From contig NZ_CANNDS010000007.1 in the NCBI RefSeq assembly GCF_947503415.1, positions 1-64,000 of the forward strand: 64,000 bases of DNA, in the 5' to 3' direction. Shown here in pieces: positions 28,527-51,968 of the stretch (position 1 is the stretch's first letter; each line of letters starts with the position of its first letter). Origin of the DNA: an uncultured Tateyamaria sp. (GTDB taxonomy: Bacteria > Pseudomonadota > Alphaproteobacteria > Rhodobacterales > Rhodobacteraceae). The notes beneath the pieces are model-generated. The model had not been told where the DNA came from. It searched no databases and saw nothing but the letters and a program-made list of their open reading frames with translations. A program made the translations under genes and the position numbers.

Positions 28527-29363
28527 ATGAAAGATTACTTAAAACCAACAACTTGGAATGACCCGTCCGTCAAACTTTTCCCATATCAGGTCGCGTTCAC
28601 CTGTCCGCCAAATGATTTTGATCCGTCGCCGTCGGATTTTCTGCGCATTTCTCCGCGTTCGGTTGGTGTGCATGCGCGCATGTTGTTCAATCGGGATTAC
28701 GGCCATGAGCTGAGCCAGCGAAAGGCGATGTTCGGCCAGCTGGAAGAGTACGTGGAGTGTATGGCAAACACCGGTGCTGACGTTTGCGGGCAAATCGGAT
28801 CGAACTGGGTGCATGCCAGCGGGCTGGGCGTGGACGGGGTGCGCCAGTATTGTGACGAGATCAGTGACCGCTACGAAACGCCGTTCCACATGGCCGGATA
28901 TTGCATGGTCGAAGCGCTGCGCGACATGAATGTGGAAAAGGTTGCCCTGAACGCAAGTTATCACTGGCCTGAATGGTGGCAGGGCACGGTTGGGTTTTTG
29001 AAAGAGGCTGGTTTCGACGTTGTTTGGGCGGGAAATTTTGTCGATCAGGGCTGGTTCGATGTGCAGGATGATCTGAACGACTGTATCTGGTGTTTCGATG
29101 GTGAATTGGCGAAAAAGTCATTCGAATATGTGGCCGACAAGGCCCCAAATGCCGACGCCTACCTTGCAAATGGCCTGCCGAATTTTCGTCGGGCTTCGGA
29201 TGGTCTTGCAGAGCGGCTTGTCGACCTTGAAGTCGGTCTGGAGCAGGCACTGGGCAAACCGATCGTCAGCCATGACAGCGCCCTATATTGGCGGATTTTC
29301 AAGACATTGGGCATTGGGCCAGCAACCGAACAAGGAGCCCTTTTGTCCAGTTTGAAAAGCTGA
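28527..29363 (+). CDS. Asp/Glu racemase-superfamily protein lacking the usual Cys
   Basis: This 278-residue protein resembles the arylmalonate decarboxylase/maleate isomerase branch of the Asp/Glu racemase superfamily. The repeated half-domains are visible around GADVCGQIGSNWVHASG and NADAYLANGLPNFRRASDG. At the positions where the paired catalytic cysteines are normally found (xxxCTSG and xxxCTN), the protein has GSN and NGLPN, so classical two-cysteine chemistry looks impossible. I start at the ATG at 28527 after GGAGGTGTC. It converges with the catabolic operon, ending 2 bp from the ornithine-cyclodeaminase-like gene. The reaction is unknown. Confidence 0.68.
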   Translation: MKDYLKPTTWNDPSVKLFPYQVAFTCPPNDFDPSPSDFLRISPRSVGVHARMLFNRDYGHELSQRKAMFGQLEEYVECMANTGADVCGQIGSNWVHASGLGVDGVRQYCDEISDRYETPFHMAGYCMVEALRDMNVEKVALNASYHWPEWWQGTVGFLKEAGFDVVWAGNFVDQGWFDVQDDLNDCIWCFDGELAKKSFEYVADKAPNADAYLANGLPNFRRASDGLAERLVDLEVGLEQALGKPIVSHDSALYWRIFKTLGIGPATEQGALLSSLKS

Positions 29364-29365
29364 CG

Positions 29366-30343
29366 TCACAGCGCCAGCCGGGTTCCCAACCCTTTATGGG
29401 CCGCTGCGGAAAGATATGCCTGTGCCAGCATGAGATCACAGGCTGCCACTCCGCGATGGCAAAACAGGACACGGTCTGAAGGCGAATGGCGACCCGTTGC
29501 CTTGCCGGCAATCACATCTCCGATCAAAGCAGAAAGTGTGGCCTCGCTGATTTCGCCGCTGGTTGTATGCGGCCCCAGCCCGCCGCGGCCATCCGGGACC
29601 CAACGATCCATTACCAACCGGTCAATATGGGCGGTGATCCCAACGGGCAGCGAACTGTAAGCGCCGAACACGATTAACAGGCAGCCCGGCGCCATCACGT
29701 CCGCCGGGAACAGAGCGCGGTTGTTCGGCAGGGCTGATCCGTCGATCATAATGTCTGCCCGGCTCATGCAGCTTTCCCAATCCGGCGTTGCGACAACAGG
29801 AACGCCGATGTCTTTTTGCAACTGCTCTGCCGCGGCCTGTGTGCGTGATGGATCACGACCGTGCAGTCGGATTTCGTCCAAGGGCAGCGCCGCCGCAATG
29901 TAGCGCGTCGACAGGACCGAGATACCACCGGTCCCGATGCACCCCAAAACCCGCGCTTCGGGGTGTGCAAGCCGCGTGGCACCGATTGCCGTCACCATGG
30001 CCGTGCGTTCCGACGTAATGCGGGACGCAGGCAACAGTCCGGTGGTTTGCCCGGTGTCCGTTTCGATCAAGGTCAACAGACCCGGGTTGGTTGCTAGCCC
30101 TTTCGCAGCATTGCCTGAAAAGCCCCCGACCGTTTTGACCAGCGCCAGGCGTTGTTCCGGAAGCGCGCCCCGGATCACCGCGATCAGATCATCGGCGCCG
30201 GGTGTCGGATTGAAAACAGAAGTTGGTTCTGCCAGCGCAGAGCCATCCGCCTGCGCGATCAGGCCTGCTTCTACGGCATTGCGGATAGCGTCGTTCGACA
30301 GTCCAATATCGCACAGATCAGCATCGGTCAGGATCGAGATCAT
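29366..30343 (-). CDS. Ornithine cyclodeaminase/mu-crystallin family protein
   Basis: This 325-residue protein has the family N-terminus and a Rossmann motif GCIGTGGIS near residues 130-140, with VKTVGGFSGNAAKGL before it. Members deaminate ornithine or reduce cyclic imines such as pyrroline-2-carboxylate, or make alanine-type amino acids. An imine-reducing role would suit a pathway that degrades N-methylated cyclic amino acids, but this is inference. The start ATG at 30343 overlaps the cupin stop (ATGA). It is the last gene of the ten-gene leftward operon. Confidence 0.8.
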   Translation of the reverse strand: MISILTDADLCDIGLSNDAIRNAVEAGLIAQADGSALAEPTSVFNPTPGADDLIAVIRGALPEQRLALVKTVGGFSGNAAKGLATNPGLLTLIETDTGQTTGLLPASRITSERTAMVTAIGATRLAHPEARVLGCIGTGGISVLSTRYIAAALPLDEIRLHGRDPSRTQAAAEQLQKDIGVPVVATPDWESCMSRADIMIDGSALPNNRALFPADVMAPGCLLIVFGAYSSLPVGITAHIDRLVMDRWVPDGRGGLGPHTTSGEISEATLSALIGDVIAGKATGRHSPSDRVLFCHRGVAACDLMLAQAYLSAAAHKGLGTRLAL

Positions 30344-30708
30344 GGTCCGGCATCCAACACAACTTTCAGCAGCATGTAGGACTTTTGCGTCTCCTCTACG
30401 GTTCGCCAAATCCCGGTCCAACCCATCGGTATGAAACCGGCTTGTCCCGGCCCGACGCGCACGACGGACCCATCCTCTTCTATCAGCTCGACAAGACCCC
30501 GGATCACCGTGAACATCTCGTGATGCGCGCGCGGACGCACGTCGAGTTCACCGGGTTGGCCCACCCATTGTCCACACATCAGAACACCACTGCCCAGATC
30601 AACACGGTTCCACAGCGTAGATGATCCATCGCCGGATCTGACAATTGCAGGATCAGGATGACGGGTTACACCGGTGGCATCATCTATATCGAGAAGGCTG
30701 GCGGGCAT
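30340..30708 (-). CDS. Small cupin-domain protein
   Basis: This 122-residue single cupin has the two motifs around RPRAHHEMFTVIRGLVELIEEDG and VGPGQAGFIPMGWTGIWRTVEE. The second motif has Trp and Thr instead of the usual His, as in DUF861/EutQ-like cupins that often lack metal catalysis. I start at the ATG at 30708 after AGGAGTGTTCCC. It overlaps the 3' end of the aldehyde dehydrogenase? No: the dehydrogenase ends at 30725, 16 bp upstream. The role within the operon, binding or isomerising a metabolite, is unknown. Confidence 0.72.
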   Translation of the reverse strand: MPASLLDIDDATGVTRHPDPAIVRSGDGSSTLWNRVDLGSGVLMCGQWVGQPGELDVRPRAHHEMFTVIRGLVELIEEDGSVVRVGPGQAGFIPMGWTGIWRTVEETQKSYMLLKVVLDAGP

Positions 30709-30724
30709 GGGAACACTCCTTGGT

Positions 30725-32206
30725 TCACGCGAATGGGTTCGGCACGACGGGCGCGGTGTTGAACCAGATGCTTTTGGTGGACATGAATTCTTCAATCGCT
30801 TTCATGCCGTTTTCGCGTCCGATGCCACTTTGCTTGACCCCTCCAAACGGTGACGTATAGCTGACCGCCCGGTAGGTGTTGACCCAGACAGTGCCCGCAC
30901 GCAGACGGTCAGACAGGCGCACGGCACTCGACAGGTCCTGCGTCCAAAGCCCTGCGGCCAGACCGAAATCGGTGTCATTGGCGATCGCGATGGCGTCGTC
31001 CTCATCCTCGAAAGAGATGACCGACAGCACCGGCCCGAACACCTCTTCACGCGCAATGCGCATGGAATTGGTCACGCCTGTGAAAATGGTGGGTTGGACA
31101 AACAGGCCGTCCCCGCAAGAGGCCCCCTGCCCCGCCCCGCCGCCCAGCACACAGGTCGCCCCTTCGGATCTAGCGATCTCCATGTACTCCAGTATTTTGG
31201 CGTGTTGCGCCGCGGTCGCAACCGGAGCCACTTGGGTGGCCGGATCGAGCGGGTCGCCCATCTTCAGATTTTTGGACTTTTCAATCAGTCGTTCGACCAG
31301 ATCGTCGTAGATGTTCCGGTGCACCAAAAGGCGCGACCCCGCGATACAGGTCTGACCCGTTGCGGCGAAAATCCCGGCCAGCACACCATTGGATGCGTTT
31401 TCCAAATCTGCATCCGGGAAGACGATGTTGGGTGACTTGCCGCCAAGCTCTAGCGCGACCTCATGAAAATGCTCCGTCGCCGCCCGATAGACTGCGCGCC
31501 CACCGGCCTCGCCGCCCGTAAAGGACACTTTGGCAATGCGTTTGTCTGTGACCAGCGCCTCACCGATTTCTTGCCCGTATCCGGTGACAACATTGACAAC
31601 ACCGGGTGGAAAACCGGCTTCGTCAAAAAGCTGCCCAAAGGCCAGAGACGAGGCTGAGGTGAACTCTGACGGTTTCAGAATGATCGTGTTCCCCGCCGCC
31701 AAAGCCGGGGCGAGTTTGTAGGCGGCCAGCAAAAGCGGAGAATTCCATGGTGTGATGCACACGATGACGCCCAAGGGGCCCGGCCGCGTGATGTTCAGCA
31801 CCGCCTGGTTTTCATTGGGCAGCACAGCACCCTCAACCTTGTCCGCAAGACCTGCGAAATAGCGATACCAGTCCGGGATGCGCCGCATCTGGCCCAGCAT
31901 TTCAGTGATCCGCTTTCCGTTGTCCATCACTTCAAGACGGGCAAATTCTTCGGCCTTGGCCTCGAACAGATCTGCGAGCCGATAGAGCAACTTGCCCCGG
32001 GCCGTTGGCGTCAACCCGGCCCAACGGGGATCTTCAAACGCAGCCACAGCGGCGGATACCGCCGTGTCGGCATCGGCGGCCGTGCCGCGCGGAATGCGGC
32101 ACCACGTTTTTTGAGTGTAAGGAAAGGTGCTGTCGATCCATGCGCCGCCCTTGGGACTATGGGCCTCCGCATTGATCAGCATTGGGACATCTTGGATGGG
32201 GTCCAT
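30725..32206 (-). CDS. NAD(P)-dependent aldehyde dehydrogenase
   Basis: This 493-residue enzyme has the family's catalytic Glu block (LELGGKSPN) and Cys in TGQTCIAGSR. The TPWNSPLLLAAYKLAPALAAGNT region supplies the cofactor site. It would oxidise an aldehyde from the operon's pathway to the acid. Start ATG at 32206, 3 bp after the MmgE/PrpD stop. It differs from the HpaE-type dehydrogenase at 49.9-51.4 kb, so the two probably have different substrates. Betaine-aldehyde or semialdehyde substrates are possible, but none can be singled out. Confidence 0.9.
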   Translation of the reverse strand: MDPIQDVPMLINAEAHSPKGGAWIDSTFPYTQKTWCRIPRGTAADADTAVSAAVAAFEDPRWAGLTPTARGKLLYRLADLFEAKAEEFARLEVMDNGKRITEMLGQMRRIPDWYRYFAGLADKVEGAVLPNENQAVLNITRPGPLGVIVCITPWNSPLLLAAYKLAPALAAGNTIILKPSEFTSASSLAFGQLFDEAGFPPGVVNVVTGYGQEIGEALVTDKRIAKVSFTGGEAGGRAVYRAATEHFHEVALELGGKSPNIVFPDADLENASNGVLAGIFAATGQTCIAGSRLLVHRNIYDDLVERLIEKSKNLKMGDPLDPATQVAPVATAAQHAKILEYMEIARSEGATCVLGGGAGQGASCGDGLFVQPTIFTGVTNSMRIAREEVFGPVLSVISFEDEDDAIAIANDTDFGLAAGLWTQDLSSAVRLSDRLRAGTVWVNTYRAVSYTSPFGGVKQSGIGRENGMKAIEEFMSTKSIWFNTAPVVPNPFA

Positions 32207-32209
32207 GGG

Positions 32210-33550
32210 TCAGGTCTCCGGTGCGAGTGCGGACAGCAGCGACGTCAGCTCGCCGGCGCTCTCAATTGCAAGTATTTGATCTGCGACGTCCCTTGCGCGA
32301 TTTCCAAGTCGAGGGTGAGCCAAGCGCACGAACTTTTGCCGCAGTCGTGTTTCCTGTTCATCCAGATCGCTGGCGGGCGCGCTGACATCTAAACGCTGTT
32401 CATGCGTGGTGCCATCACGCAGGGTAATCCGGGTTGCTGCTTCCATTCTGTTGTCGGTGTGCAGTGGCGCGACATCGACTTTCTCACGCAAGGCACAAAG
32501 CACACCATCTGCTGCCAGCGCGTCTTTAAAGGTCGTGGGATCAGTAGTGTCCCGCCCGGCCAAGACCATGGCGACCAGGTGACGTACGGAGAATTTGACC
32601 TCTAATCCGGTTGTCGGCTCAACAATGTCACATACGCCTTCCAGTCCGGGTTTCAGTTGGATCAGCACCCGGTCGATGTCAGCTGTCCGGAGTTCGAATT
32701 TGCGGCGCAGTTGTGCAACCGCTTCAATTGCTGAATGGGTGTAGTAACAGGCCGCATGATACTTAAAGACGTTGCCTTCGATGCCAAAGGATGCGGACAT
32801 GTCCGGCCTGATTGGAAGCGGGGCAAAATCCTCGGACAAGGCCGGACCAAACCCGACATCGTCACCAATGCCGTCGGCAGCAGCGGACATCCCCCGTGCT
32901 GCCCACCGCGCGGCCATCAGACCGCGTTCGGCGGCAAGTCCGGCATGCAGGGGCTTGGCCATTGTGCCGAACATGGCGCGCAGACCGGACGCTTGCGTTG
33001 CCGCCAGCGACAGGGCCCGTCCGGATGTATCCGCATCGGCGTTGATTACCCGACAGACCCCAGCCGCAGCAGCAACAGTCCCGATTGTAGCTGTTGCGTG
33101 AAACCCGCGCGCGTAATGCGCTTCGCCCATCATCTCGCCTAGCATGCAGGCCACTTCGGTGCCTGTGACAAACGCGTCGACAATGTCGGCGTCGGCGTGT
33201 TCCTGCGCTCCGGCCAATATGGCAGGGACGATCGCCACGCTGGGATGGCCGCGCATCCGCTTGTTGATGTCATCAAAGTCCAGAGCATGCGAGGATGCCC
33301 CGTTGATCCGTGCGGCCTGTGGTGCCGTAACACGCATTTCGTGACCAATGATCGGGTGGTGCCCGCGGCACCCGTCTGACTGTGCGTCTGCGATCAAATG
33401 CGCAACCAACGGCTCATCCGCGCCCGCCAAGGCGACCCCGGTCCAATCCAACAGTGCCTGCTGCGCGGCGCGCCGTGCGCGAGGTGACGGCGGATCATCC
33501 CGCCGCGCGATCCATCGCGCCAGTTCTGCTGTGACCGAATTCGCAATCAT
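32210..33550 (-). CDS. MmgE/PrpD family protein
   Basis: This 446-residue protein has the helical N-terminal domain (WTGVALAGADEPLVAHLI, NGASSHALDFDDIN) and the C-terminal lid (AACYYTHSAIEA, VKFSVRHLVAMVLAG) of the MmgE/PrpD family, which contains 2-methylcitrate dehydratase and cis-aconitate decarboxylase. The HALDFDD element is well kept. I start at the ATG at 33550, which overlaps the upstream stop as TGATG, rather than at the preceding TTG. Here it probably dehydrates or decarboxylates a dicarboxylic intermediate; the substrate is unknown. Confidence 0.85.
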   Translation of the reverse strand: MIANSVTAELARWIARRDDPPSPRARRAAQQALLDWTGVALAGADEPLVAHLIADAQSDGCRGHHPIIGHEMRVTAPQAARINGASSHALDFDDINKRMRGHPSVAIVPAILAGAQEHADADIVDAFVTGTEVACMLGEMMGEAHYARGFHATATIGTVAAAAGVCRVINADADTSGRALSLAATQASGLRAMFGTMAKPLHAGLAAERGLMAARWAARGMSAAADGIGDDVGFGPALSEDFAPLPIRPDMSASFGIEGNVFKYHAACYYTHSAIEAVAQLRRKFELRTADIDRVLIQLKPGLEGVCDIVEPTTGLEVKFSVRHLVAMVLAGRDTTDPTTFKDALAADGVLCALREKVDVAPLHTDNRMEAATRITLRDGTTHEQRLDVSAPASDLDEQETRLRQKFVRLAHPRLGNRARDVADQILAIESAGELTSLLSALAPET

Positions 33551-34746
33551 CAATAGGACTTTGGCAGCCCAAGCACGTGCTGCGCCACGAAACTCAGGAT
33601 CAGGTTGGGTGAAATGGGTGCAATCCTACTCAGCCGCGCATCGCGCCACTTGCGTTCGATGTCATATTCGCGGGCAAAGGCAAAACCTCCGAACGTGGTG
33701 AAACACGCCTCTGCAGCTTTCCAGGCAGACTCGGCCGACAGCAGGCGCGCCATGTTGGCCTCCGCCCCGCACGGCAGTCCGGCTTCGAACATGGCCGTGG
33801 CCTTGCGCACCATCAGGTCGGCGGCCTCCAATTCAGCATGGGCCTGGGCCAGAGGGAACTGGATGCCCTGGTTCTGGCCGATGGGGCGGTTGAAGACGAC
33901 CCGTTCACGGGCGTAGTCGCTTGCCTTGCCGATGAAGTAGCGCCCGTTGCCGATGCCTTCGGAGGCGGTCAGGCAGCGTTCGGCGTTCATGCCGTCAAGG
34001 ATGTATCGAAAGCCCTTGCCCTCTTCCCCGATCAGTGCATCGGCGGGGATGGGCACGTTGTCAAAGAACACCTCGCAGGTGTTGTGGTTGATCATCGCGT
34101 CTATGGGCTTGATCGTGCAGCCGTTCTGCTTGGCCTCTTGCAGATCAATCAGGAAGGTCGAGATCCCGTGATGGCGCTTTTCGACTTTATCGAGCGGTGT
34201 GGTGCGCGCGATCAGCAGCATGAGGTCGGAATGCAGCGCGCGGCTGGTCCAGACCTTTTGTCCGTTGATGACATAGCCATCATTGGTACGGTCCGCCCGC
34301 GTCTTGATCTGCGTGGTGTCAGAGCCGGAGGTTGGTTCGGTGACGCCAAAGGCTTGCAAACGCAATTCACCGCTGGCGATCTTGGGCAGGAATTTCTGCT
34401 TCTGTTCCGGCGTGCCGTGGCGCAGGATCGTGCCCATCGTGTACATCTGCGCGTGCCCTGCTGCCGCAGAGCATCCCATGGCGTTGATCGTCTCTAGGAT
34501 CACAGCACCGCCGCGCAGCGGCAGGCCCGCGCCGCCATATTCTTCGGGGATCAGTGCGGCCAGATATCCCGCTTCGGTCAGCGCGTCGATAAAGGCCGTG
34601 GGATAGCTGCCGTCGACCGGCTGGTCTTCGAGGTTTTGCCAGTATTCGCCGGGAAACCCCTCGCACAGCTTGGCGACCTGATCGCGGATATCGGCGTAGT
34701 CATTGCCGAGATCGACATTGATTTCTGAGGCGGGTGCGGAGGTCAT
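33550..34746 (-). CDS. Acyl-CoA dehydrogenase
   Basis: This 398-residue FAD enzyme shows the family signatures AFGVTEPTSGSDTTQIKTRA and the C-terminal FGGFAFAREYDIERKWRDARL. It would introduce or reduce a double bond next to a CoA thioester and pass electrons to ETF. It lies between an HMG-CoA-lyase-like and an MmgE/PrpD gene, with a CaiB-type CoA transferase and a crotonase further upstream in the operon, so a full CoA-ester route can be built. The stop overlaps the next start. Confidence 0.9.
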   Translation of the reverse strand: MTSAPASEINVDLGNDYADIRDQVAKLCEGFPGEYWQNLEDQPVDGSYPTAFIDALTEAGYLAALIPEEYGGAGLPLRGGAVILETINAMGCSAAAGHAQMYTMGTILRHGTPEQKQKFLPKIASGELRLQAFGVTEPTSGSDTTQIKTRADRTNDGYVINGQKVWTSRALHSDLMLLIARTTPLDKVEKRHHGISTFLIDLQEAKQNGCTIKPIDAMINHNTCEVFFDNVPIPADALIGEEGKGFRYILDGMNAERCLTASEGIGNGRYFIGKASDYARERVVFNRPIGQNQGIQFPLAQAHAELEAADLMVRKATAMFEAGLPCGAEANMARLLSAESAWKAAEACFTTFGGFAFAREYDIERKWRDARLSRIAPISPNLILSFVAQHVLGLPKSY

Positions 34747-34757
34747 GATATCGTCTT

Positions 34758-35696
34758 TCAGATTGCAGTTGCAGGGGTGAACCCTTTGGGCACACCAGCT
34801 TTGACAAAAGTGCCATGGGTCGGCTCATCGCCCAGATGGGAGGCCATGACAGCGCGCGCTTCCAGCAGCAGATCAAGGTTGATGCCCGTGCGCACGCCCA
34901 TGGATTCCAGCATGAACACAAGGTCCTCGGTCACAACATTTCCCGTGGCGCCGGGGGCATAGGGACAGCCGCCCAAGCCCCCTTGCGCGCCGTCCAGCGT
35001 GGTGGCCCCCGCCTCGAACGCGGCAAAGCAATTGGCAAGGCCAAGCCCGCGTGTGTCGTGGAAATGCGCGCCGACGGGCAAGTCATCCGCCATATCGACG
35101 ACGTGGCGATAGACCCGTTTGACTTGCGCTGGATTTCCATATCCCACCGTATCGGCAAGGCCGATCTTGTCCGCCCCCAGCGCCTTGAGCTGTTCGGCAT
35201 AGTGGAACACATCGGCCTCGGGCACAGTGCCCTGTATCGTGCAGCCAAAGCAGGTCGCGAGCCCGCCTGAGACGCGGATGTGTTCGGCGCCAGGGGTGTC
35301 ATTGCGTGCGGCCACAATACCGGCGAATTCTTCCAGCGATTGCTCGCGCGTCTTGCGTACATTGTTGAGGTTGTGCGGCTCCGACGCCGACATCACAAAG
35401 TTGATCTGATCGGCCCCGGCGGCGATGGCGTTTTGCGCGCCGCGCAGGTTTGGGACCAGCACGCTGATCGAAAAGCCGCCGATCTTTTTGGCTTCGGCTA
35501 CCAACTCGGCCGTGTCCGCCAGTTGCGGCATCAGCTTGGGCGGCACGAAGCTGCCCACCTGAATTTGGGGCATGCCCGCTGCGGCCAGCGCCTTGATCCA
35601 TGCGATCTTGGCCTGCGTCGGCATGATGATGTCGGTGGCTTGCAACCCGTCGCGGGGCCCGACCTCTTGCACGGTGATATCTCGGTCCGGTGTCAT
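34758..35696 (-). CDS. HMG-CoA lyase-like protein (DRE-TIM metallolyase)
   Basis: This 312-residue TIM-barrel has the N-terminal QEVGPRDGLQ, the metal-binding HFHDTRGLGLAN and the signature GGCPYAPGATGNVVTEDLV with the lyase Cys. The family cleaves hydroxyacyl-CoA esters such as HMG-CoA to acetyl-CoA and an oxo acid. Its ATG overlaps the enolase-superfamily gene stop (ATGA). It may cleave the CoA ester produced by the crotonase and CaiB steps. Whether it replaces a HpaI-type aldolase, which is missing here, cannot be told. Confidence 0.88.
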   Translation of the reverse strand: MTPDRDITVQEVGPRDGLQATDIIMPTQAKIAWIKALAAAGMPQIQVGSFVPPKLMPQLADTAELVAEAKKIGGFSISVLVPNLRGAQNAIAAGADQINFVMSASEPHNLNNVRKTREQSLEEFAGIVAARNDTPGAEHIRVSGGLATCFGCTIQGTVPEADVFHYAEQLKALGADKIGLADTVGYGNPAQVKRVYRHVVDMADDLPVGAHFHDTRGLGLANCFAAFEAGATTLDGAQGGLGGCPYAPGATGNVVTEDLVFMLESMGVRTGINLDLLLEARAVMASHLGDEPTHGTFVKAGVPKGFTPATAI

Positions 35697-36811: not shown

Positions 36812-36812
36812 G

Positions 36813-37607: not shown

Positions 37608-37612
37608 GGGCG

Positions 37613-42904: not shown

Positions 42905-42923
42905 GACAGGAAGAGGTAAGACG

Positions 42924-44021: not shown

Positions 44022-44022
44022 C

Positions 44023-44388: not shown

Positions 44389-44412
44389 CAGGGCAGATCG
44401 TGTACAAAGTCA

Positions 44413-44448
44413 ATTATTGACAAGTAAGAAATTATTTTTATCAATAAT
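44413..44448 (+). promoter_or_regulatory. Promoter with 8-bp inverted repeat before the second Rieske gene
   Basis: TTGACA at 44417-44422 is a -35 candidate, followed after 16-17 bp by an AT-rich -10-like hexamer near 44439-44445. ATTATTGA (44413-44420) and TCAATAAT (44441-44448) are a perfect inverted repeat that brackets the promoter, a typical repressor layout. The stretch 44417-44434 resembles 46344-46361 before the racemase-like gene. Confidence 0.5.
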
Positions 44449-44473
44449 CAAACGATACAGCCGGAGAGGTCTC

Positions 44474-45613: not shown

Positions 45614-45661
45614 CCGTTAGCGGGTTGTTGCGCGTCACCCATTTGTCGTAAACTCTGTCGG

Positions 45662-46330
45662 ATGACAGACCGTTCCACAGATCCAGTTCCCGGTGCCTTG
45701 GCCGAACGCGAAGTGCTTTCCGTGCTGGAGCCGTCCACAGAACGCGGTGATGATGACAAAAGCCTGATCGGCAACGAAGTCCGGTTCTGGCGCAAGGAAC
45801 GCAGCCTGACCGGATCGAAGCTTGCCAAGCTGTCGGACATCACGCCAGGCATGCTGACCAAGATTGAACAGGGCAAGGTTGCGCCATCCATCCAGACCTT
45901 GCTGTCGATTTCCAATGCTTTGAACGTCCCGATCTCGATGTTCTTTCATCGCATCGAGAAAAGCAGATACGTGTCTTTCGTGCCCGCGGACAAACGGATG
46001 CAGGTCGACAAGCGCGGCACGCGTGCGGGGCATCTGTATGAAATGCTGGGTCACAACACCGGCCAATCCATCGCGATAGAGCCATTTTTCGTCACCTATG
46101 ATCAGGACTCAGAGCCGTTTTCCACATTTCAGGAAGAGGGCTACAAGTTCATCTACATGGTGTCGGGTCACATCGTTTACCGTCACGGGGCTCGGTATTT
46201 CCCGCTGCATGCGGGCGACTCGTTGATCTTTGACGCCATGGCCCCCCATGGCCCGGCCGAATTGAAGGAACTGCCGTCGACCCTTTTGTCGGTGGCCGTG
46301 TCGTCTCGGTACGACCCCGGGCTGCGCTAG
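45662..46330 (+). CDS. XRE-family regulator with C-terminal cupin
   Basis: This 222-residue regulator has a helix-turn-helix at about residues 38-92 (VRFWRKERSLTGSKLAKLSDITPGMLTKIEQGKVAPSI split over two helices) and a cupin sensor domain at about 140-215 (PFSTFQEEGYKFIYMVSGHIVYRHG). Regulators of this kind control amino acid and amine catabolism and sense a small pathway metabolite through the cupin. It lies between the second Rieske gene and the racemase-like gene, both preceded by a similar TTGAC-containing motif, so it is the best local regulator candidate. Confidence 0.88.
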   Translation: MTDRSTDPVPGALAEREVLSVLEPSTERGDDDKSLIGNEVRFWRKERSLTGSKLAKLSDITPGMLTKIEQGKVAPSIQTLLSISNALNVPISMFFHRIEKSRYVSFVPADKRMQVDKRGTRAGHLYEMLGHNTGQSIAIEPFFVTYDQDSEPFSTFQEEGYKFIYMVSGHIVYRHGARYFPLHAGDSLIFDAMAPHGPAELKELPSTLLSVAVSSRYDPGLR

Positions 46331-46361: not shown

Positions 46362-46437
46362 GATGTCGTATTTGTTAATATGGCATCTGTGACACTCCGT
46401 CCTTGATTGCCGTATCTCATTTGAGAAAGGCGTGACG

Positions 46438-47220
46438 ATGTCCAACAGCCCGCCCATCGCAGGGATCATTACCCCGCCCGACTGGTATGATCCGACACCG
46501 GAGCGGTTTCGGGACTTGGCGACAACACCGGTCCGTGTGCAACAGACCCTGATGCCTGCGGTCAGCTTCGATTTCAGCCTCGACAGCATCGCCGCCAGCG
46601 AACCTGAGATGCAGGTTGCTGCCCGGTCCCTCGGGCGCACGGGCTGCAAGGCCATTGTTCTCAGCGGGACGCCCTTTACCTGGGCACATGATCCGACCGA
46701 AGCGGGCGCACGCGCCTTGCAGGCAAGGTTGTCGCGGGCTGCAGGCCACATTCCCTTTGTGTTTCCGGGCCTCGCCATTGTCGACGCCTGCCGGTCGCTG
46801 GGGATCAAGCGTCCTGCGTGCTGCACAACGTACTACCCCGCGGACTGGCGCGATGGCTGGGCGGGCTTTTTGCGCGATTGCGGGTTGGGCCCGAATGTTG
46901 TGCTGTCGATGGATCAGCTTGACATGGTGCCAACCATAAATGCGGTTTCTGAACAGGGTTGGACACTCTCCGCCGACGATATTGTCGCCTCGGCCCGTGC
47001 CGTTCGACGGGCCGATCCGGATGCAGACGGTATGCTGATCACCGGTGCGGGTGCCAGCACATACGGATTGATCAACGACATGGAACGGGAGTTCGGAATA
47101 CCGGTGATCGGCGCGGATGGGGCCATTCTTTGGGGCCTCGCCCGGGCAATGGATATTGAGCTTGCCTACGGCTGCCTTGGACAAGTGACCAACGCGCCGA
47201 TGCCCAGCCCGTCCGCGTGA
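46438..47220 (+). CDS. Asp/Glu racemase-superfamily (maleate isomerase/AMDase-like) protein
   Basis: This 260-residue protein opens AGIITPPDWYDPTPERF, as in maleate isomerase/arylmalonate decarboxylase relatives. The two catalytic-cysteine sites read VLSGTPF and ITGAGAST, so both cysteines appear replaced by Ser/Gly. A pair CC lies elsewhere (PACCTTYY). It is the second superfamily member of the window lacking the cysteines and is only distantly similar to the one at 28.5 kb. I start at the ATG at 46438 after GAGAAAGG. It converges with the hpa operon, ending 70 bp from hpaH. Confidence 0.7.
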   Translation: MSNSPPIAGIITPPDWYDPTPERFRDLATTPVRVQQTLMPAVSFDFSLDSIAASEPEMQVAARSLGRTGCKAIVLSGTPFTWAHDPTEAGARALQARLSRAAGHIPFVFPGLAIVDACRSLGIKRPACCTTYYPADWRDGWAGFLRDCGLGPNVVLSMDQLDMVPTINAVSEQGWTLSADDIVASARAVRRADPDADGMLITGAGASTYGLINDMEREFGIPVIGADGAILWGLARAMDIELAYGCLGQVTNAPMPSPSA

Positions 47221-47290
47221 CATTGATCATGTCACGCCAGAAAAGGTGAACCTTCAGGAAGCGTAAGCAAAATGCCGACCGCCACAGGCG

Positions 47291-48091
47291 CTACGCAAAA
47301 GAAATATCAACAGACCCAAACGCGCCGAAATCTGCCGTGATATCGCTCCCAGAAGGGCATTCGACCGGCCGAATGAAACTGCCTGACAGGATGATCTGAC
47401 CCGGTTCAATGCTTTGGCCGTAGCCCGCCATGCGGCGGGCGAGCCACACAACACTTTCCACCGGGTCGTTCAGCACACCCGCGCCCAGACCGGTTTCCTC
47501 GACCTCACCATTCTTCGACGTGATCGCCCCGACCCAGCGCAGGTCGAACGCATCCACTGCGTGCCTTTGCGGACCCAGCACAACGCCCGCATTGGCCGCG
47601 TTGTCGCTGATCGTGTCAAAGACGGTGCGCGTCTTGCCCGTCTCCGCATCCACCCGCGTAATCCGCGTGTCGAGGATTTCGATGGATGGGGCCACGTAAT
47701 CCGTGGCCGCCAGCACGTCCGCGCGGGTCACCTCTGCACCTGCAAGAGGCGCTTTCATCACAAAGGCAATCTCCGCCTCGATCCGGGGTTGGATGAACCG
47801 ACCGTTGGGCACCGCAGCGCCATGCTCGAACACCATGTCGTTAAACAAAATCCCGCTGTCGGGGATGTCGATGTTCAGCGCGTATTGCATCGCCTTGGAC
47901 GTCAGTCCGATCTTCCAGCCCACGACGGACCGGCCCTGTTTCAGCTTGGCCTGGTAAATAGCGTTCTGGATGGCATAGGCGTCGTCCATCCCCATCTCCG
48001 GATGGCGTTTCGTGAGCAAGCCAATCTGCGTGCCTGACGCCTCGGCCTCCAGCAAATCGGCGGCGGCCTGTGCGTGATCTTCGGGGGTCAT
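47291..48091 (-). CDS. hpaH: 2-oxo-hepta-3-ene-1,7-dioate hydratase
   Basis: This 266-residue member of the hydratase/decarboxylase (MhpD/HpaH) family shows GWKIGLTSKAMQYAL, IEAEIAFVMKAPL and the final ILSGSFIRPVECPSGSDITADFGAFGSV. It would add water to the dienoate formed from the ring-cleavage product of homoprotocatechuate, giving 4-hydroxy-2-oxoheptanedioate. It is the last gene of the leftward hpaE-hpaD-hpaG-hpaH operon and overlaps hpaG by 4 bp. The aldolase HpaI that would act next is not in the window. Confidence 0.88.
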   Translation of the reverse strand: MTPEDHAQAAADLLEAEASGTQIGLLTKRHPEMGMDDAYAIQNAIYQAKLKQGRSVVGWKIGLTSKAMQYALNIDIPDSGILFNDMVFEHGAAVPNGRFIQPRIEAEIAFVMKAPLAGAEVTRADVLAATDYVAPSIEILDTRITRVDAETGKTRTVFDTISDNAANAGVVLGPQRHAVDAFDLRWVGAITSKNGEVEETGLGAGVLNDPVESVVWLARRMAGYGQSIEPGQIILSGSFIRPVECPSGSDITADFGAFGSVDISFA

Positions 48092-48948
48092 ACCACCTCG
48101 TCCTCTACCGTATTGCGCAGGGTTCCAATGGTGTTCACCTCCACCTCGACCACGTCGCCGGGCTTCAGAAATTGCGGTGGGTCCAGCCGCGCACCGGACC
48201 CTGTGGGTGTGCCGGTGACGATGATGTCACCCGGCAGCAATTCCATGAAGGTCGAGATATATTCGATCTCCCGCCGGATCGGATGCATCATGCGAGACAG
48301 CACATCGTCCTGTCTCACCTCACCATTCACGCGGGTGATGATGCGGGCATCATCCAGCTGAGACGCATCCGTAAATGGCACCAGCCATGGGCCAAGGGCT
48401 GCGGAGCGATCCCAGTTCTTGCCTTGGGTGACGTTGAACTTCGCGTGCCGCACCCAGTCGCGAATGGTCCCTTCGTTGCAAATGGTCAGCGCCGCGATGT
48501 GGTCATAGGCATCGGCTTGCGCGATCCGACGACCCGCCTTGCCAATGACAATTGCCACCTCGCCTTCGTAATCCAGTTGGTGACTTTCCGGGGGGCGGAT
48601 CAGTGGGCGATCATGCCCGGTGAACCCACTGGCAAAGCGCGGAAACAGCGACATGAACTTGGGCTGTTCGCTGCCGTCCTTGTACTCGGCATTGCGATCC
48701 GGGAAGTTCACGCCAACGCACAGGATACGTCGCGCACCCGGCAGGACCATGTCGTAGCTGACTTGCGCATGCGTCACAGATTGCCCGACGGCGGCTTGCA
48801 CCAGTTGCTCCAAACCACCCGCCACAACCGCATCGAACAGCGTCGGCCACTGCGGAAATGCGTCGTTCAGGGCAATCATACCGGCATCGGTGACCGCGCC
48901 ATAGAAGCTGTCGCCGCCAGCGGAGTAGCTTGCCAAACGCGCACTCAT
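48088..48948 (-). CDS. hpaG: Fumarylacetoacetate hydrolase-family decarboxylase/isomerase
   Basis: This 286-residue FAH-fold protein contains ILCVGVNFPDRNAEYKDG, the metal ligands in LDYEGEVAIVIGK and the C-terminal GDIIVTGTPTGSG. In the homoprotocatechuate pathway HpaG decarboxylates 5-oxo-pent-3-ene-1,2,5-tricarboxylate and isomerises the product. It is a single-domain protein, unlike the two-domain enterobacterial HpaG. Its start overlaps the hpaD stop (ATGA-type, 4 bp). The hpa name is by context and family. Confidence 0.85.
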   Translation of the reverse strand: MSARLASYSAGGDSFYGAVTDAGMIALNDAFPQWPTLFDAVVAGGLEQLVQAAVGQSVTHAQVSYDMVLPGARRILCVGVNFPDRNAEYKDGSEQPKFMSLFPRFASGFTGHDRPLIRPPESHQLDYEGEVAIVIGKAGRRIAQADAYDHIAALTICNEGTIRDWVRHAKFNVTQGKNWDRSAALGPWLVPFTDASQLDDARIITRVNGEVRQDDVLSRMMHPIRREIEYISTFMELLPGDIIVTGTPTGSGARLDPPQFLKPGDVVEVEVNTIGTLRNTVEDEVV

Positions 48949-49928
48949 GGCGCGATGATCGGGGTGGCCTGCATGTCCGACTCCTGTGTTTCCACGCCTC
49001 CAAAGATCGTGCCATGTTCAAACCAGCTGCGCGGCGCGGGTGCGCCCCACAGCGTCTGGCGCTGCGGGTCCTTCAAGTCCCATTTGATCGGCTCAAGGTC
49101 CGGATCAACAGTCTGATAATCCGAACAATAAATCTCGATCCGGTGGCCGTCAGGGTCGAGGATATACAGGAAGAACGCGTTGGAAATCCCATGCCGGCCC
49201 GGCCCGCGTTCGATGTTGCTGACATACCCCGTGGTCGCCATCAGATCGAGCAGATCGATGATGTTCAACGGTGTCGGCACCCAAAACGCGACATGGTGCA
49301 ATCGGGGGCCGGTTCCGTTGGTAAACGCCATGTCATGCACGCCGCCCTTGCGGTGCATCCACGCGGCCCAAAGCCGTTTACTCTCGTCATCCTCTGTATA
49401 TTCGGTCACGCGAAAGCCCATGTCGGAATAGAATGCGACAGACGCGTCCACATCCGGGCTGAAACAGTTGAAGTGATCAATGCGCAGCGGCTTCACCCCG
49501 CGGTACAGCGCGTATTTCTGGTGGATGGGCGCAAGCCGATCCATCTTGTGATAAAATTCCAGCGGGATACCATGGTTGTCCGAGGTCAGCAGCGTGCGCC
49601 CCTGATACGGACGATCCACCCATTCGGTGGGGCGGCCCTTGCCTTGAAAAAACGCCTCTGCCCGGTCCAGATCATCTTCATCAAGGGTCTTGAATCCCAT
49701 CACCTCGACCGTGCCCGGCTCATCGGATTTCTGCAGGATGATACAGTGGTGGCCACGTTCCTCCATCGCGCGCAGGTAGACGTGGCTGTCGTCTTCATCC
49801 GTGATTTGCAGGCCCAGCGTGTCACAGTAAAAGGCCTTGGACGCCGCCAAATCAGCGACGTTCAGGCAGACATGGCTCAGGCGGATGGTGTTGAAATCCG
49901 GGTAAAGGTTCGGTGCAGGCACAGGCAT
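48945..49928 (-). CDS. hpaD: 3,4-dihydroxyphenylacetate 2,3-dioxygenase (type I extradiol)
   Basis: This 327-residue vicinal-oxygen-chelate enzyme has two repeated modules. The second bears the iron ligands: His in RIDHFNCFSPDV, His in HHVAFWVPTP and Glu in HRIEIYCSDYQT. The block NIERGPGRHGISNAFFLYIL is characteristic of homoprotocatechuate 2,3-dioxygenases. It opens the catechol ring of 3,4-dihydroxyphenylacetate by meta cleavage to 5-carboxymethyl-2-hydroxymuconate semialdehyde. It lies between hpaE and hpaG with overlapping starts and stops. Confidence 0.92.
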   Translation of the reverse strand: MPVPAPNLYPDFNTIRLSHVCLNVADLAASKAFYCDTLGLQITDEDDSHVYLRAMEERGHHCIILQKSDEPGTVEVMGFKTLDEDDLDRAEAFFQGKGRPTEWVDRPYQGRTLLTSDNHGIPLEFYHKMDRLAPIHQKYALYRGVKPLRIDHFNCFSPDVDASVAFYSDMGFRVTEYTEDDESKRLWAAWMHRKGGVHDMAFTNGTGPRLHHVAFWVPTPLNIIDLLDLMATTGYVSNIERGPGRHGISNAFFLYILDPDGHRIEIYCSDYQTVDPDLEPIKWDLKDPQRQTLWGAPAPRSWFEHGTIFGGVETQESDMQATPIIAP

Positions 49929-51439
49929 CAGAGCGCTCCCAATTTGGTGATCTTGTGCTGGCCGGTGGCAAAGCCGATATGCTTTTGCTCCATGTAAAAC
50001 TCGAAGGACCAGTCGCCGCCGTCGCGTCCAATGCCGCTCGCTTTGACCCCGCCGAAGGGGGTGGGCAGGTGGCGCACATTCTCGGAATTCACCCAGATCA
50101 TCCCCGCCTCCAGCTTGTCCGTAAAGCGCAGGGCGCGGGTCAGATCGTTGGTCCAGACATACCCTGTCAGACCGTAGGGCGTATCGTTGGCCATCTGCAA
50201 CGCCTCCTCCTCGGAGCCGAAGGGGATTGAGGTCAGAACGGGGCCAAAGATTTCCTCCTGCGCGATGGTCATGTCATTGCTGGCATCGGTAAAGAGCGTG
50301 GGTTTGATGAAATATCCCTCATCGCCCATGGCCTCCCCACCTGCCGCGATGGTGGCACCATCCGTCCTCGCAATATCGAAATAACTGGTGACCTTGTTGA
50401 AATGCTCCTCGCTCACAAGTGGGCCAATCTCGGTCGCAGGGTCAAGCGGATGCCCGACCTTGATATTGTTGACCCGCGCCACCAGCTTGGCCTCGAATTC
50501 CGCCCGGATTGTGTCCTGTATCAACAGCCGGGACGAGGACGTGCAGCGTTCCCCGTTGATCGAATAGATCATGAAGATCACGGCATCGAGCGCGCGGTCC
50601 AGATCGGCATCGTCAAAGACAATGACCGGGTTCTTGCCACCCAGCTCCAGATGGTTCCGCTTGAGCGTATCGGCACCCTGTTTGGTGATCAGCGACCCCG
50701 TTCGGCTTTCGCCCACAAAGGCGATGGCGCGGATCTTGGGGTGTTCGCAGAGCGCCTTGCCCGCGTCCTCTCCAAACCCGTTCACGGTGTTCAGAACGCC
50801 CGGCGGCAGGCCCGCTTCCTCCGCAATCTCGACCAGCAGACGGGCTGTCAGGGGCGACGCCTCAGCCGGTTTGTGAACGACGGTGCAACCCGCGGCAAGC
50901 GCAGGCGCGATCTTCCAAGTGGACAGCATGAAGGGCGTATTCCACGGCGTGATCACGCCCACCGGGCCAATCGGCACACGGGTGGTGATGTTCATCAACG
51001 TGGGCGATTTCAGGTGCTGACCGTCCCTTGCCTGTACGACCTGATCTGCGAAATAGCGGAAATTCTCGGCTCCGCGCAACGCGGCCTTGGACATGAACTT
51101 GTAGGCCTGCCCCGTGTCCCAACACTCGCATAGTGCAATCTCTTCCGCCCGCGCCTCGATCCCTTCGGCTATGCGGATCAGGATCTTGCGCCGCTCGGTC
51201 GCTGGCAGGTCGCGCCAGTCTGCAAAGGCATCGTGGGCCGCCTTCGCTGCCGCATCAATATCCGCCGTCGTGCCGCGCGCAACATCGCAAATCACGCTCT
51301 TGTCGACCGGAGAGATCGTCTGGAACACGCCCCCCGCCCCGGCCTCATCCTCCCCTGCGATCCGGTTTTGGATGCCCGTGTTCTGGAACCGCTCAAGATA
51401 GCCGTTCAGTTTGGCGATGTTGTCGTCCAGCACGGACAT
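49928..51439 (-). CDS. hpaE: 5-carboxymethyl-2-hydroxymuconate semialdehyde dehydrogenase
   Basis: This 503-residue aldehyde dehydrogenase has ELGGKNP and the catalytic Cys in GERCTSSSRL. It is the first gene of the hpa operon and its stop overlaps the hpaD start. It would oxidise the semialdehyde from HpaD to 5-carboxymethyl-2-hydroxymuconate. I take the ATG at 51439, with GGAGG 4 nt before it; an ATG 15 bp upstream lacks a ribosome site. The MarR-type gene hpaR is divergent, with a palindromic operator between them. Confidence 0.9.
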   Translation of the reverse strand: MSVLDDNIAKLNGYLERFQNTGIQNRIAGEDEAGAGGVFQTISPVDKSVICDVARGTTADIDAAAKAAHDAFADWRDLPATERRKILIRIAEGIEARAEEIALCECWDTGQAYKFMSKAALRGAENFRYFADQVVQARDGQHLKSPTLMNITTRVPIGPVGVITPWNTPFMLSTWKIAPALAAGCTVVHKPAEASPLTARLLVEIAEEAGLPPGVLNTVNGFGEDAGKALCEHPKIRAIAFVGESRTGSLITKQGADTLKRNHLELGGKNPVIVFDDADLDRALDAVIFMIYSINGERCTSSSRLLIQDTIRAEFEAKLVARVNNIKVGHPLDPATEIGPLVSEEHFNKVTSYFDIARTDGATIAAGGEAMGDEGYFIKPTLFTDASNDMTIAQEEIFGPVLTSIPFGSEEEALQMANDTPYGLTGYVWTNDLTRALRFTDKLEAGMIWVNSENVRHLPTPFGGVKASGIGRDGGDWSFEFYMEQKHIGFATGQHKITKLGAL

Positions 51440-51457
51440 GGCGCCTCCGATCATTTC

Positions 51458-51471
51458 ATTAACATGTTAAT
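51458..51471. promoter_or_regulatory. HpaR operator candidate ATTAACATGTTAAT
   Basis: This is a perfect 14-bp palindrome 19 bp before the hpaE start and 60 bp before hpaR. MarR regulators bind such palindromes and relieve repression when an aromatic ligand binds. The location in the shared hpaE/hpaR promoter region makes it the best operator candidate. Confidence 0.6.
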
Positions 51472-51530
51472 TGTTGCGAAGTTAAGTAAATCTGTGTTGA
51501 ACTGTCAAGACCGACCAACCCCGAGGCTGC

Positions 51531-51968
51531 ATGACGAAAACGCTCCCCTCCACGTCCCGCTCCCTGCCCATCGCGCTGATCCGCGCGCGCGAAGGGGTGA
51601 TGGCCCCAATCCGCGAAATGCTGGCCGAGACCGGGATCACGGAACAGCAATGGCGCGTACTGCGAGTACTGGCGGAGTTCGGCGTGATGGATGCCAAGAC
51701 GCTCGCTGATCGGTCCAGCCTGCTGTTTCCCAGCCTGACCCGCATAGCGGCGACCTTGCGGGACAAAGGGTTGGTGACGCAAACCCGCGATGACAAGGAC
51801 CGCCGCCGCCAGTTTATCCAGATCACGCAGGCCGGGCAAAAGATCATCGACGACCGCGCAGGTCAGGCGGCACAGATCGTGGCAGGGTTCAAATCCACGC
51901 TCGGCGCGCGGGAGTATGAAACATTGCTTGATCTGCTCGCCCGCCTTGATCCGGGGGCTGATGGCTAG
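51531..51968 (+). CDS. hpaR: MarR-family regulator of homoprotocatechuate degradation
   Basis: This 145-residue MarR protein has a winged helix (ITEQQWRVLRVLAEFGVMDA, then RIAATLRDKGLVTQTRDDKDRRRQFIQ). HpaR proteins repress the hpa meta operon in the absence of hydroxyphenylacetates. Divergent position next to hpaE supports the name. Its stop overlaps that of the convergent UPF0261 gene by 4 bp. Confidence 0.88.
   Translation: MTKTLPSTSRSLPIALIRAREGVMAPIREMLAETGITEQQWRVLRVLAEFGVMDAKTLADRSSLLFPSLTRIAATLRDKGLVTQTRDDKDRRRQFIQITQAGQKIIDDRAGQAAQIVAGFKSTLGAREYETLLDLLARLDPGADG

Follow-up and report, generated by a model that had tools for sequence, protein, structure and literature searches.

The locus analysed here raises the question whether two divergent operons and a neighbouring set of hpa genes encode one pathway for an N-methylated, possibly aromatic compound, as proposed in a preliminary description, or whether the genes serve different purposes. 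It lies in a 64,000-nucleotide stretch of DNA (the window) from an uncultured Tateyamaria sp. Profile matches in the window confirmed every gene family named in that description, and additionally revealed an XRE-cupin regulator, a EutQ-like Cupin_3 protein and two proteins with an arylmalonate-decarboxylase/Asp-Glu-racemase fold (Table 1). Our main reading, to which we assign a probability of roughly 0.6, is that positions 29,366–46,330, perhaps together with the importer (24.9–28.1 kb) and the two AMDase-fold genes, constitute a single catabolic unit for a betaine-type (quaternary-ammonium) compound, a unit that is rare and was probably gained by horizontal transfer.

Table 1 Features of the locus in the window. 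Percentages are identities to the counterparts in L138 (uncultured Roseovarius contig) and L140 (MAG)
Feature	Position	Strand	Basis or counterpart
ABC importer	24901..28143	-	Pfam; putative unit member
Importer ATP-binding protein	ORF 24901-26136	-	
Importer permease	ORF 25961-26995	-	
ProX/OpuAC binding protein	27049-28143	-	
Operator-like palindrome TTGACTGAAAGTCAA	28403..28417		between ProX and AMD1
AMD1, arylmalonate-decarboxylase/Asp-Glu-racemase fold	28464..29363	+	weak Pfam match, below cut-off
OCD, ornithine cyclodeaminase/mu-crystallin family	29366..30343	-	L138 61%
EutQ-like Cupin_3 protein	30340..30711	-	Pfam on ORF 30340-30795; L138 71%
Aldehyde dehydrogenase	30725..32206	-	L138 83%
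MmgE/PrpD family protein	32210..33553	-	L138 about 62%
ACAD, acyl-CoA dehydrogenase	33550..34746	-	L138 92%
HMGL, HMG-CoA-lyase-like	34758..35696	-	NF004283; L138 83%
ENOL, mandelate-racemase/muconate-lactonizing-enzyme-type enolase superfamily	35693..36811	-	L138 76%
ECH, crotonase/enoyl-CoA hydratase	36813..37607	-	L138 87%
CaiB-type CoA transferase	37613..38749	-	L138 78%
OYE1, histamine/trimethylamine dehydrogenase-family flavoprotein	38746..40827	-	L138 85%, L140 68%
Imperfect operator-like site TTGAACTGGGGTCAA	40865..40879	+	OYE1-OYE2 divergent intergenic stretch
OYE2, second OYE-family flavoprotein	40937..42904	+	L138 86%
RO1, Rieske oxygenase, E-C-F-H-C motif	42909..44021	+	L138 75%
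RidA-family protein	44023..44388	+	Pfam on ORF 43996-44388; L138 52%
RO2, Rieske oxygenase without cysteine pair (D-V-Y-H-V)	44471..45613	+	L138 81%
XRE-cupin regulator	45662..46330	+	L138 86%, L140 54%
AMD2, arylmalonate-decarboxylase-fold protein, possible unit member	46432..47220	+	33% relative in L138
hpaH, hpaG-like, hpaD, hpaE (-), hpaR (51531-51968, +), UPF0261	47291..53197	-	separate neighbouring block

The two divergent operons comprise 15 genes, from OCD through XRE. All 15 were found in identical positional order on the Roseovarius contig L138, with protein identities of 52–92%; RidA, Cupin, OCD and MmgE are the least conserved. Neither copy contains internal stops in these genes, and in 15 of 15 gene pairs the third codon positions diverge far more than the first and second. 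The conserved order, together with this pattern of divergence, indicates that the grouping is more than chance. Since L138 retains the two operons side by side, they behave as one unit, and L140 contains a reduced form consisting of XRE, OYE1, CaiB, ECH, HMGL, ACAD and a Rieske oxygenase. The association of the ten-gene operon with the Rieske set, as previously described, is thus borne out. L138 is the one second full copy among the matches listed, so that the membership of any single gene is based on one comparison. The L138 unit carries an extra FAA-hydrolase gene, which is absent from the unit in the window, and is bordered at its XRE end by a fragment of the phage-integrase family, with an SBP_bac_5 gene at the opposite end.

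The unit is rare and was probably acquired horizontally. A match to RO1 was found in one of 390 genomes, namely the host's own, and the unit is absent from the seven congeners searched. In congener G552 (L228), a gap of about 2.3 kb separates a formate dehydrogenase block from the genes orthologous to window positions 5.3–8.3 kb, which suggests that 8.3–53.2 kb was inserted; this arrangement was seen in one of five congeners, the fetched stretches of G544, G479, G240 and G455 lacking it. A survey of CaiB loci retained 80 loci of at least 551 relatives, 46 of them at least 19 kb long, and further copies of the unit may exist beyond the loci surveyed.

Evidence for the substrate class comes mainly from RO1. 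Its closest known counterparts are carnitine monooxygenase CntA and stachydrine demethylase Stc2, both of them group V (quaternary-ammonium) Rieske oxygenases. Enzymes of this group feature a bridging Glu followed by Cys-x-x-Cys, corresponding to E205, C206 and C209 in CntA (available part of PMC10952381). The aligned stretch of RO1, N-S-L-E-C-F-H-C, agrees with the E-C-x-H-C motif of these enzymes; E-C-F-H-C is present in RO1 of both full loci, and the Rieske oxygenase of L140 has E-C-Y-H-C. CntA is the best solved-structure match of RO1 and shares the E-C-x-H-C stretch, but the score of this match is no more than about 107 bits. In contrast, the quaternary-ammonium motif is missing from RO2 and from its counterpart in L138; both read W-S-D-V-Y-H-V, with D-V-Y-H-V in place of the motif described for CntA. 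Both RO1 (136.8 bits) and RO2 (123.6 bits) score below the cut-off of NF058607, the model for glycine betaine monooxygenase GbcA (670 bits). Among the genes of the window that were searched, none could be recognised as a reductase partner of RO1 or RO2, CntB-type reductases included.

OYE1 aligns end to end with histamine dehydrogenase (3k30, 6de6) and trimethylamine dehydrogenase, with 722 bits for 3k30 compared to 519 bits for trimethylamine dehydrogenase. Cys30, Gln60 and the Tyr/His/Asp triad are retained in the alignments; the roles of such residues in the histamine dehydrogenase family, including the FMN-binding Cys30, are described in the available part of PMC10180351. Cys30 and the Tyr/His/Asp catalytic residues place OYE1 in the histamine/trimethylamine dehydrogenase family. 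However, pocket-lining residues of Rhizobium histamine dehydrogenase are altered or deleted: Ile69, Phe72, Glu74 and Asp354 (Rhizobium numbering) correspond to Asn, a two-residue deletion with Asn, and Asn. These changes are identical in the window, L138 and L140, and OYE1 falls outside histamine dehydrogenase proper. Judged from sequence, OYE1 is probably an amine dehydrogenase and OYE2 probably an N-demethylase. As a marker of the operon OYE1 was rejected as not specific, its relatives occurring in many contexts (84 of 295 family genomes at E ≤ 1e-80, the best other relative at 58% identity). MmgE, with relatives at E ≤ 1e-40 in 112 of 295 family genomes, and ENOL were set aside as markers as well.

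The CaiB-ECH-HMGL-ACAD module is widespread. It was found in 35 of the 80 CaiB loci kept, with identities of 45–87% for ECH, 40–83% for HMGL and 55–92% for ACAD. In many proteobacteria the same four enzymes occur together, often with MmgE/PrpD; TRAP or TctA transporters adjoin them in the examples inspected, whereas among the loci kept Rieske/OYE1 genes accompany the module only in L138 and L140. One narrow literature query found no paper on this module. HMGL scored 293 bits against the HMG-CoA lyase subfamily model NF004283 (cut-off 246) and shares with 6nds the stretches QEVxPRDGLQ, HFHxTRG and GGLGGCPxAPGAxGN, which we take to be active-site motifs. The values for the CaiA-, CaiB- and CaiD-type models of the carnitine/crotonobetaine CoA pathway are below the cut-offs for ACAD (149.1 of 540 bits, NF002885), CaiB (64.1 of 413, NF002914) and ECH (164.2 of 500, NF002936). 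The best NCBIfam match of CaiB, succinate-glutarate CoA-transferase NF052585, likewise reached 249.3 bits against a cut-off of 750.

The roles of ENOL, OCD, MmgE, AMD1 and AMD2 do not fit neatly into one scheme. ENOL relatives (E ≤ 1e-90) occur in 30 of 295 family genomes; the closest (55–61%) are located in tandem-enolase clusters or next to OYE genes, where the CoA module does not adjoin, and Rieske oxygenases are often near relatives of 42–61% identity. AMD1 matches Pfam Amdase with an E value of 0.00039 (20.6 bits, cut-off 25.9) and is present in 19 of 295 family genomes, the host's own counted; in 9 of 15 fetched AMD1 loci the neighbours include a Rieske relative and an enolase that is 40% or more identical to ENOL. 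The AMD2 relative in L138 follows OCD. When aligned with 3dtv, AMD2 has no Cys in the catalytic-cysteine stretch (the catalytic cysteine of arylmalonate decarboxylase is presumably Cys188), which sets it apart from this enzyme.

ProX relatives (E ≤ 1e-40) were found in 3 of 15 genomes tested, including the host, and are absent from congener G240. A ProX-type importer was not seen in L138, where the transporter gene adjoining the unit is SBP_bac_5. Upstream of the latter, L138 contains a perfect TTGACNNNNNGTCAA at 20432–20446, so that the same palindrome precedes a transporter gene in both loci; of 229 loci, 226 contain no copy, and among the three that do, two are fragments of this window. The pattern was chosen by eye. 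In its loose form it matched three times in the window (0.37 expected), two matches being both strands of one palindrome. With one mismatch allowed, the window gave 5 matches compared to 1.95 expected, a number reached in 6 of 100 shuffles and hence not clearly enriched, and L138 gave 1 compared to 0.63. An inverted-repeat search at the settings used found none. The operator-like palindrome shared with L138 lends weak support to the main reading.

The joint operons in L138, their reduced form in L140 and the RO1 motif support an N-methylated substrate, probably a quaternary ammonium compound. The pairing of relatives of RO1 (35%) and OYE2 (49%) on a Rhodococcus plasmid, in a cluster with an aminobutyraldehyde-dehydrogenase-annotated gene and a transporter annotated as betT, points the same way. 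We infer every reaction, the order of steps and the substrate of the unit as follows. The compound would be taken up by the ProX-type importer and undergo a first oxidative N-demethylation by RO1, while additional methyl groups might be removed, or the product oxidised, by OYE2 and RO2, and enamine or imine intermediates cleared by RidA. OYE1 would then convert the freed amine to an aldehyde, which the aldehyde dehydrogenase would oxidise to the acid. After putative CoA transfer by CaiB, desaturation, hydration and cleavage by ACAD, ECH and HMGL would yield an oxo acid together with acetyl-CoA. For ENOL, OCD and MmgE/PrpD we envisage a part in forming or rearranging an intermediate that is cyclic or carboxylated, and both operons may be controlled by the XRE-cupin protein. 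With low confidence, we guess that the skeleton is a C5–C6 dicarboxylate such as glutarate or 3-methylglutarate, derived from a betaine of the valerobetaine type or of a cyclic amino acid. We tentatively suggest, as a possibility less likely than not, a previously undescribed route for a quaternary-ammonium natural product in which Rieske/OYE demethylation, deamination by a histamine dehydrogenase relative with a new pocket and CoA-type breakage of the skeleton, including HMG-CoA-lyase-type cleavage, are encoded by one mobile two-operon unit. Against the betaine reading stand the absence of the motif from RO2, the different importer class in L138 and the lack of a recognised reductase partner in the window; members of the OYE1 family also serve methyl-free primary biogenic amines.

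The unit could alternatively degrade an N-methylated aromatic compound (a tyramine, tyrosine or DOPA derivative), the demethylated product being ring-cleaved via homoprotocatechuate by the hpa genes. The hpa genes adjoin the unit and HpaD (413.3 bits, cut-off 321.4), HpaE (764.1, 638.35), HpaH (378.2, 351.5) and HpaR (130.7, 121.2) pass the NCBIfam cut-offs for this pathway, the hpaG-like protein remaining below with 151 bits (276.4). Tyramine is accepted by some OYE1-family enzymes (available part of PMC10180351), and in G072 (L105, L134) hpa genes lie beside a Rieske/enolase/AMD1 group. In three other hpa clusters (L123, L130, L131), hpaG and hpaD enclose a Pyridoxal_deC gene, which points to aromatic amino acid substrates, but the window has none at this place. 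Of 30 other genomes tested, 14 carry hpaD; in 13 of these 14, congener G240 among them, the DNA fetched around it includes no Rieske, OYE, enolase, OCD, XRE or AMD relatives. Congeners carry hpa genes without the unit, and in G560 and G552 the hpaHGDE-hpaR-UPF0261 block is located at another genomic place (at most 40 initial candidates per genome scored). L138 has no hpa gene within its 21 kb, and none of the 80 CaiB loci kept of at least 551 relatives, L138 included, contains hpaD, hpaE or hpaH relatives of at least 35% identity. The CoA module would, in addition, have no task in an aromatic route. Independent occurrence of operons and hpa genes, which the preliminary description had named as speaking against its proposal, was therefore observed as far as hpa without the two operons is concerned, and its idea of hpa genes as half of one pathway and of an aromatic part in the substrate finds no support. 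On genome comparison we rejected an aromatic N-methyl pathway including hpa, and we regard this explanation as very improbable. As hpa occurs without the unit in other genomes and elsewhere in congeners, the block looks like a real, ordinary separate pathway beside the unit.

That the two operons are merely neighbours, a Rieske/OYE2 demethylation set beside an amine or dicarboxylate operon, appears quite unlikely. The CoA module does occur without Rieske/OYE1 genes in 33 of the 80 loci kept of at least 551 relatives (the 35 minus L138 and L140), OYE1 relatives accompany aldehyde dehydrogenase and cupin genes in Ideonella (a cupin gene likewise adjoins the relative in G249), and the Rhodococcus plasmid combines an RO1 and an OYE2 relative with other dehydrogenases. 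However, the operons are joined in L138, and a single stretch of L140 contains OYE1, XRE, all four genes of the CoA module and a Rieske oxygenase with the motif. Unlikely, though less so, is a cyclic hydroxy-amino-acid betaine (3-hydroxyproline-betaine-like), whose ring ENOL would dehydrate, with OCD reducing the imine, RidA hydrolysing the enamine and the CoA module taking the opened chain. RidA is present, ENOL matches cis-3-hydroxy-L-proline dehydratase (NF043002) best among the NCBIfam models, and OCD, probably an imine reductase or cyclodeaminase, resembles several cyclodeaminase and pyrroline-2-carboxylate reductase models. Yet ENOL, with 309.7 bits, falls short of the 500-bit cut-off, OCD stays far under every cut-off, neither of the two has a match in L140, and we know of no hydroxyproline route that includes a CoA module.

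Betaines constitute a large reservoir of organic carbon and nitrogen, and every catabolic unit newly found shows which compounds bacteria can use. In the unit described here, genes for demethylation are combined with a CoA module that is widespread, so that finding its substrate would also tell that of the module in many other proteobacteria. The hpa genes beside it illustrate that proximity on an island can suggest a false pathway. No description of the whole gene set was found in the literature searched, which largely excluded subscription journals and is weak evidence of absence; no degradation operon for comparison was found there for homarine, a candidate substrate. StcD has been described as an N-methylproline demethylase (available part of PMC12239276).

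Taken together, the unit of the main reading is a novel combination of genes in which no single enzyme family is new. Stachydrine and hydroxyproline betaine catabolism brings together a Rieske oxygenase, an OYE-type flavoprotein, an enolase-superfamily enzyme and a betaine-type importer, and these four components are common to the unit. Those routes finish in proline metabolism and, to our knowledge, include neither a CaiB-ECH-HMGL-ACAD module nor a histamine-dehydrogenase-type enzyme.

The 15 genes from OCD, of the ornithine cyclodeaminase/mu-crystallin family, to the XRE-cupin regulator gene (XRE) form two divergent operons, here called the unit. All genes listed in the preliminary description, namely the ten-gene operon, the Rieske set, the importer and the hpa genes, were confirmed.

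Features of the window in order of position
Feature	Position	Strand	Remarks
Beta-helix protein with SdrD_B-like domain; RTX-repeat protein with pectate-lyase-like domain	17969-23042	-	
ProX-type ABC importer	24.9-28.1 kb		
AMD1, arylmalonate-decarboxylase / Asp-Glu-racemase fold	28,464		flanks the 15-gene set; weak match
Ten-gene operon, in gene order	40,827 down to 29,366	-	OYE1 (OYE-family flavoprotein), CaiB, ECH (crotonase), ENOL (enolase superfamily), HMGL (HMG-CoA-lyase-like), ACAD (acyl-CoA dehydrogenase), MmgE/PrpD, ALDH (aldehyde dehydrogenase), Cupin_3, OCD
Divergent operon		+	OYE2 (OYE family), RO1 (Rieske oxygenase), RidA, RO2 (Rieske oxygenase), XRE-cupin regulator
AMD2, arylmalonate-decarboxylase / Asp-Glu-racemase fold	46,432		flanks the 15-gene set on the other side
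hpaH, hpaG-like, hpaD, hpaE, hpaR	47.3-52.0 kb		
UPF0261, then sigma-54 response regulator and formate dehydrogenase cluster			beyond the hpa genes

CaiB was aligned with three relatives, a collection of species-representative genomes was scanned with the alignment, and the best 80 loci among the matches listed were compared. An uncultured Roseovarius contig (L138) carries all 15 genes in the positional order of the window, with protein identities of 52–92%, XRE in reversed orientation and an additional FAA-hydrolase gene between OYE2 and OYE1. None of the 15 genes has internal stops in either copy, and the copies differ at 41–65% of third and 3.5–30% of second codon positions. OCD is followed in L138 by an AMD2-like gene (33%); the contig is bounded at the XRE end by a fragment of the Phage_integrase family and at the opposite end by the beginning of an SBP_bac_5 transporter gene. 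A reduced form was found on a MAG contig (L140), with XRE (54%), OYE1 (68%), CaiB (67%), ECH (63%), HMGL (61%), ACAD (80%) and a Rieske oxygenase 36% identical to RO1. Because L138 holds the full set and L140 a reduced form, the ten-gene operon and the Rieske set belong together as one unit. Past the Rieske gene of L140, at about 15.6–17.0 kb, ORFs resembling a glycosyltransferase and a cupin were noted by eye.

The unit is rare. At E ≤ 1e-60, RO1 was detected in one of 390 genomes of the order, its own, and in none of the seven congeners of that sample; OYE1, ENOL, RO2, AMD1 and ProX had no match in congener G240 at the limits used. The closest plasmid relatives of RO1 and RO2 are about 33–35% identical. 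When 20 kb queries from window positions 44–64 kb were compared with seven congeners, no match among those listed started before 47,289. The unit looks acquired. In congener G552 (L228, compared also with window 53.2–64 kb), a distance of about 2.3 kb separates the formate dehydrogenase block from orthologues of window 5.3–8.3 kb; this arrangement, present in one of five congener stretches, suggests an insertion of about 45 kb in the window.

The preliminary description had tentatively included the hpa genes in one pathway for an N-methylated, possibly aromatic substrate. hpaD was found in 15 of 31 chosen genomes, its own counted, and 18.7–20 kb around it were compared in the 14 others. No relatives (E ≤ 1e-15) of OYE1, OYE2, RO1, RO2, ENOL, OCD, RidA, XRE, AMD1, AMD2 or ProX were present in 13 of these 14 stretches, the exception being G072, in which the hpa genes adjoin enolases, a Rieske oxygenase and AMD1 (L105, L134). 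Isolated weak relatives of MmgE (38%), CaiB (33%) or ALDH (41%) occur among these hpaD stretches. Relatives of hpaD, hpaE, hpaG or hpaH with at least 35% identity were absent from all 80 CaiB loci (the best 80 among the matches listed). In congeners G560 and G552, hpaHGDE-hpaR-UPF0261 is found at a different location with 78–91% protein identity (L223, L224), as one moving block. A Pyridoxal_deC gene lies between hpaG and hpaD in three relatives (L123, L130, L131), which fits ordinary catabolism of an aromatic amino acid or amine. By this gene-neighbourhood evidence the hpa block is a neighbour, separate from the unit. With 13 of 14 stretches lacking Rieske, OYE and enolase relatives and the block placed elsewhere in G560 and G552, the aromatic part of the proposal is probably wrong.

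The RO1 motif E-C-F-H-C aligns with E205, C206 and C209 of CntA. E-C-x-H-C also occurs in the Rieske oxygenases of L140, of the enolase clusters L032, L095 and L105 and of two Rhodococcus relatives; RO2 has D-V-Y-H-V at this position in both copies (window and L138). The cysteine pair is tied, in an excerpt of PMC10952381, to a clade acting on quaternary ammonium compounds. On Rhodococcus rhodochrous plasmid pNit, relatives of RO1 (35%) and OYE2 (49%) lie within 9 kb of a betT-annotated gene; genes annotated as aminobutyraldehyde dehydrogenase and succinate-semialdehyde dehydrogenase accompany them, as does a PDR/VanB reductase.

OYE1 scored 722 and 721 bits against histamine dehydrogenase and 519 bits against trimethylamine dehydrogenase; Cys30, Gln60 and the Tyr/His/Asp triad are conserved. 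The histamine dehydrogenase pocket includes Ile69, Phe72, Glu74 and Asp354 (PMC10180351, excerpt), and OYE1 keeps none of the four; its changes there are shared by L138 and L140 but not by the Ideonella relative. Given the family scores, the kept catalytic residues and a pocket altered at positions with the roles described in that excerpt, OYE1 is predicted to be an amine dehydrogenase with a substrate other than histamine. Two or three OYE1 relatives stand in tandem in L068, L069 and L070, two of which also hold an OYE2 relative.

The best solved relative of ENOL is 2qdd (493 bits), a structure entry without stated function. Enolases 42–61% identical to ENOL accompany Rieske oxygenases in several clusters, and an enolase at least 40% identical to ENOL, AMD1 and a Rieske oxygenase occur together in 9 of the 15 AMD1 loci compared. 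Further genes of these clusters encode a DMGDH-like flavoprotein, class III aminotransferases, zinc dehydrogenases and a DMSP_lyase-family cupin. The clusters have the appearance of betaine-type ones and, as a second line of evidence, support a part for ENOL in N-methyl chemistry. The cupin (PF16867; L062, 7704-8306) lies amid tandem enolases, a Rieske oxygenase, a GCV_T/DAO flavoprotein and a class III aminotransferase, and ORFs of about 200 aa that look similar occur in L097 and L060. In a cluster of this kind, the cupins may take part in betaine-type chemistry. Elsewhere in the own genome (L135, C1:661157-665639), AMD2 relatives of 58–65% (two pieces in different frames; this first copy looks frameshifted) and 35% adjoin two ORFs in which a CIGCGLC-type stretch recurs.

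For the CoA module, CaiB, ECH (at least 45%), ACAD (at least 55%) and HMGL (at least 40%) are combined in 35 of the 80 CaiB loci, including L138 and L140, and MmgE relatives in 46, again counting the best 80 among the matches listed. The module lies beside a TRAP transporter in Pontibrevibacter, beside MFS genes in Paraburkholderia and near TctA or DctM genes in two MAG loci; because of these transporters, its substrate is likely to be a carboxylic acid. HMGL carries the complete motif set of HMG-CoA lyase and would therefore cleave a 3-hydroxyacyl-CoA. The best family model of CaiB is succinate-glutarate CoA-transferase, with a score far under the cut-off.

The sequence TTGACNNNNNGTCAA occurs in perfect form between ProX and AMD1 and also in L138, 70 bases before the SBP_bac_5 gene; the stretch between OYE1 and OYE2 has an imperfect copy. 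Perfect copies were found in 3 of 229 loci, namely L138 and two window pieces, the remaining counted loci amounting to 2,802,986 bases. The pattern was picked by eye and is not clearly enriched across the whole window, so these sites are no more than a hint that transporter and operons share a regulator.

Of the earlier proposal, the unit is thus judged real and its N-methyl chemistry right, the aromatic part probably wrong. The best substrate class, named with low confidence, is a quaternary-ammonium compound whose skeleton would lead to a C5-C6 dicarboxylate. No description of this gene combination was found in the literature searched; its enzyme families are all known ones, and the unit is filed as a putative betaine-type catabolic cluster.
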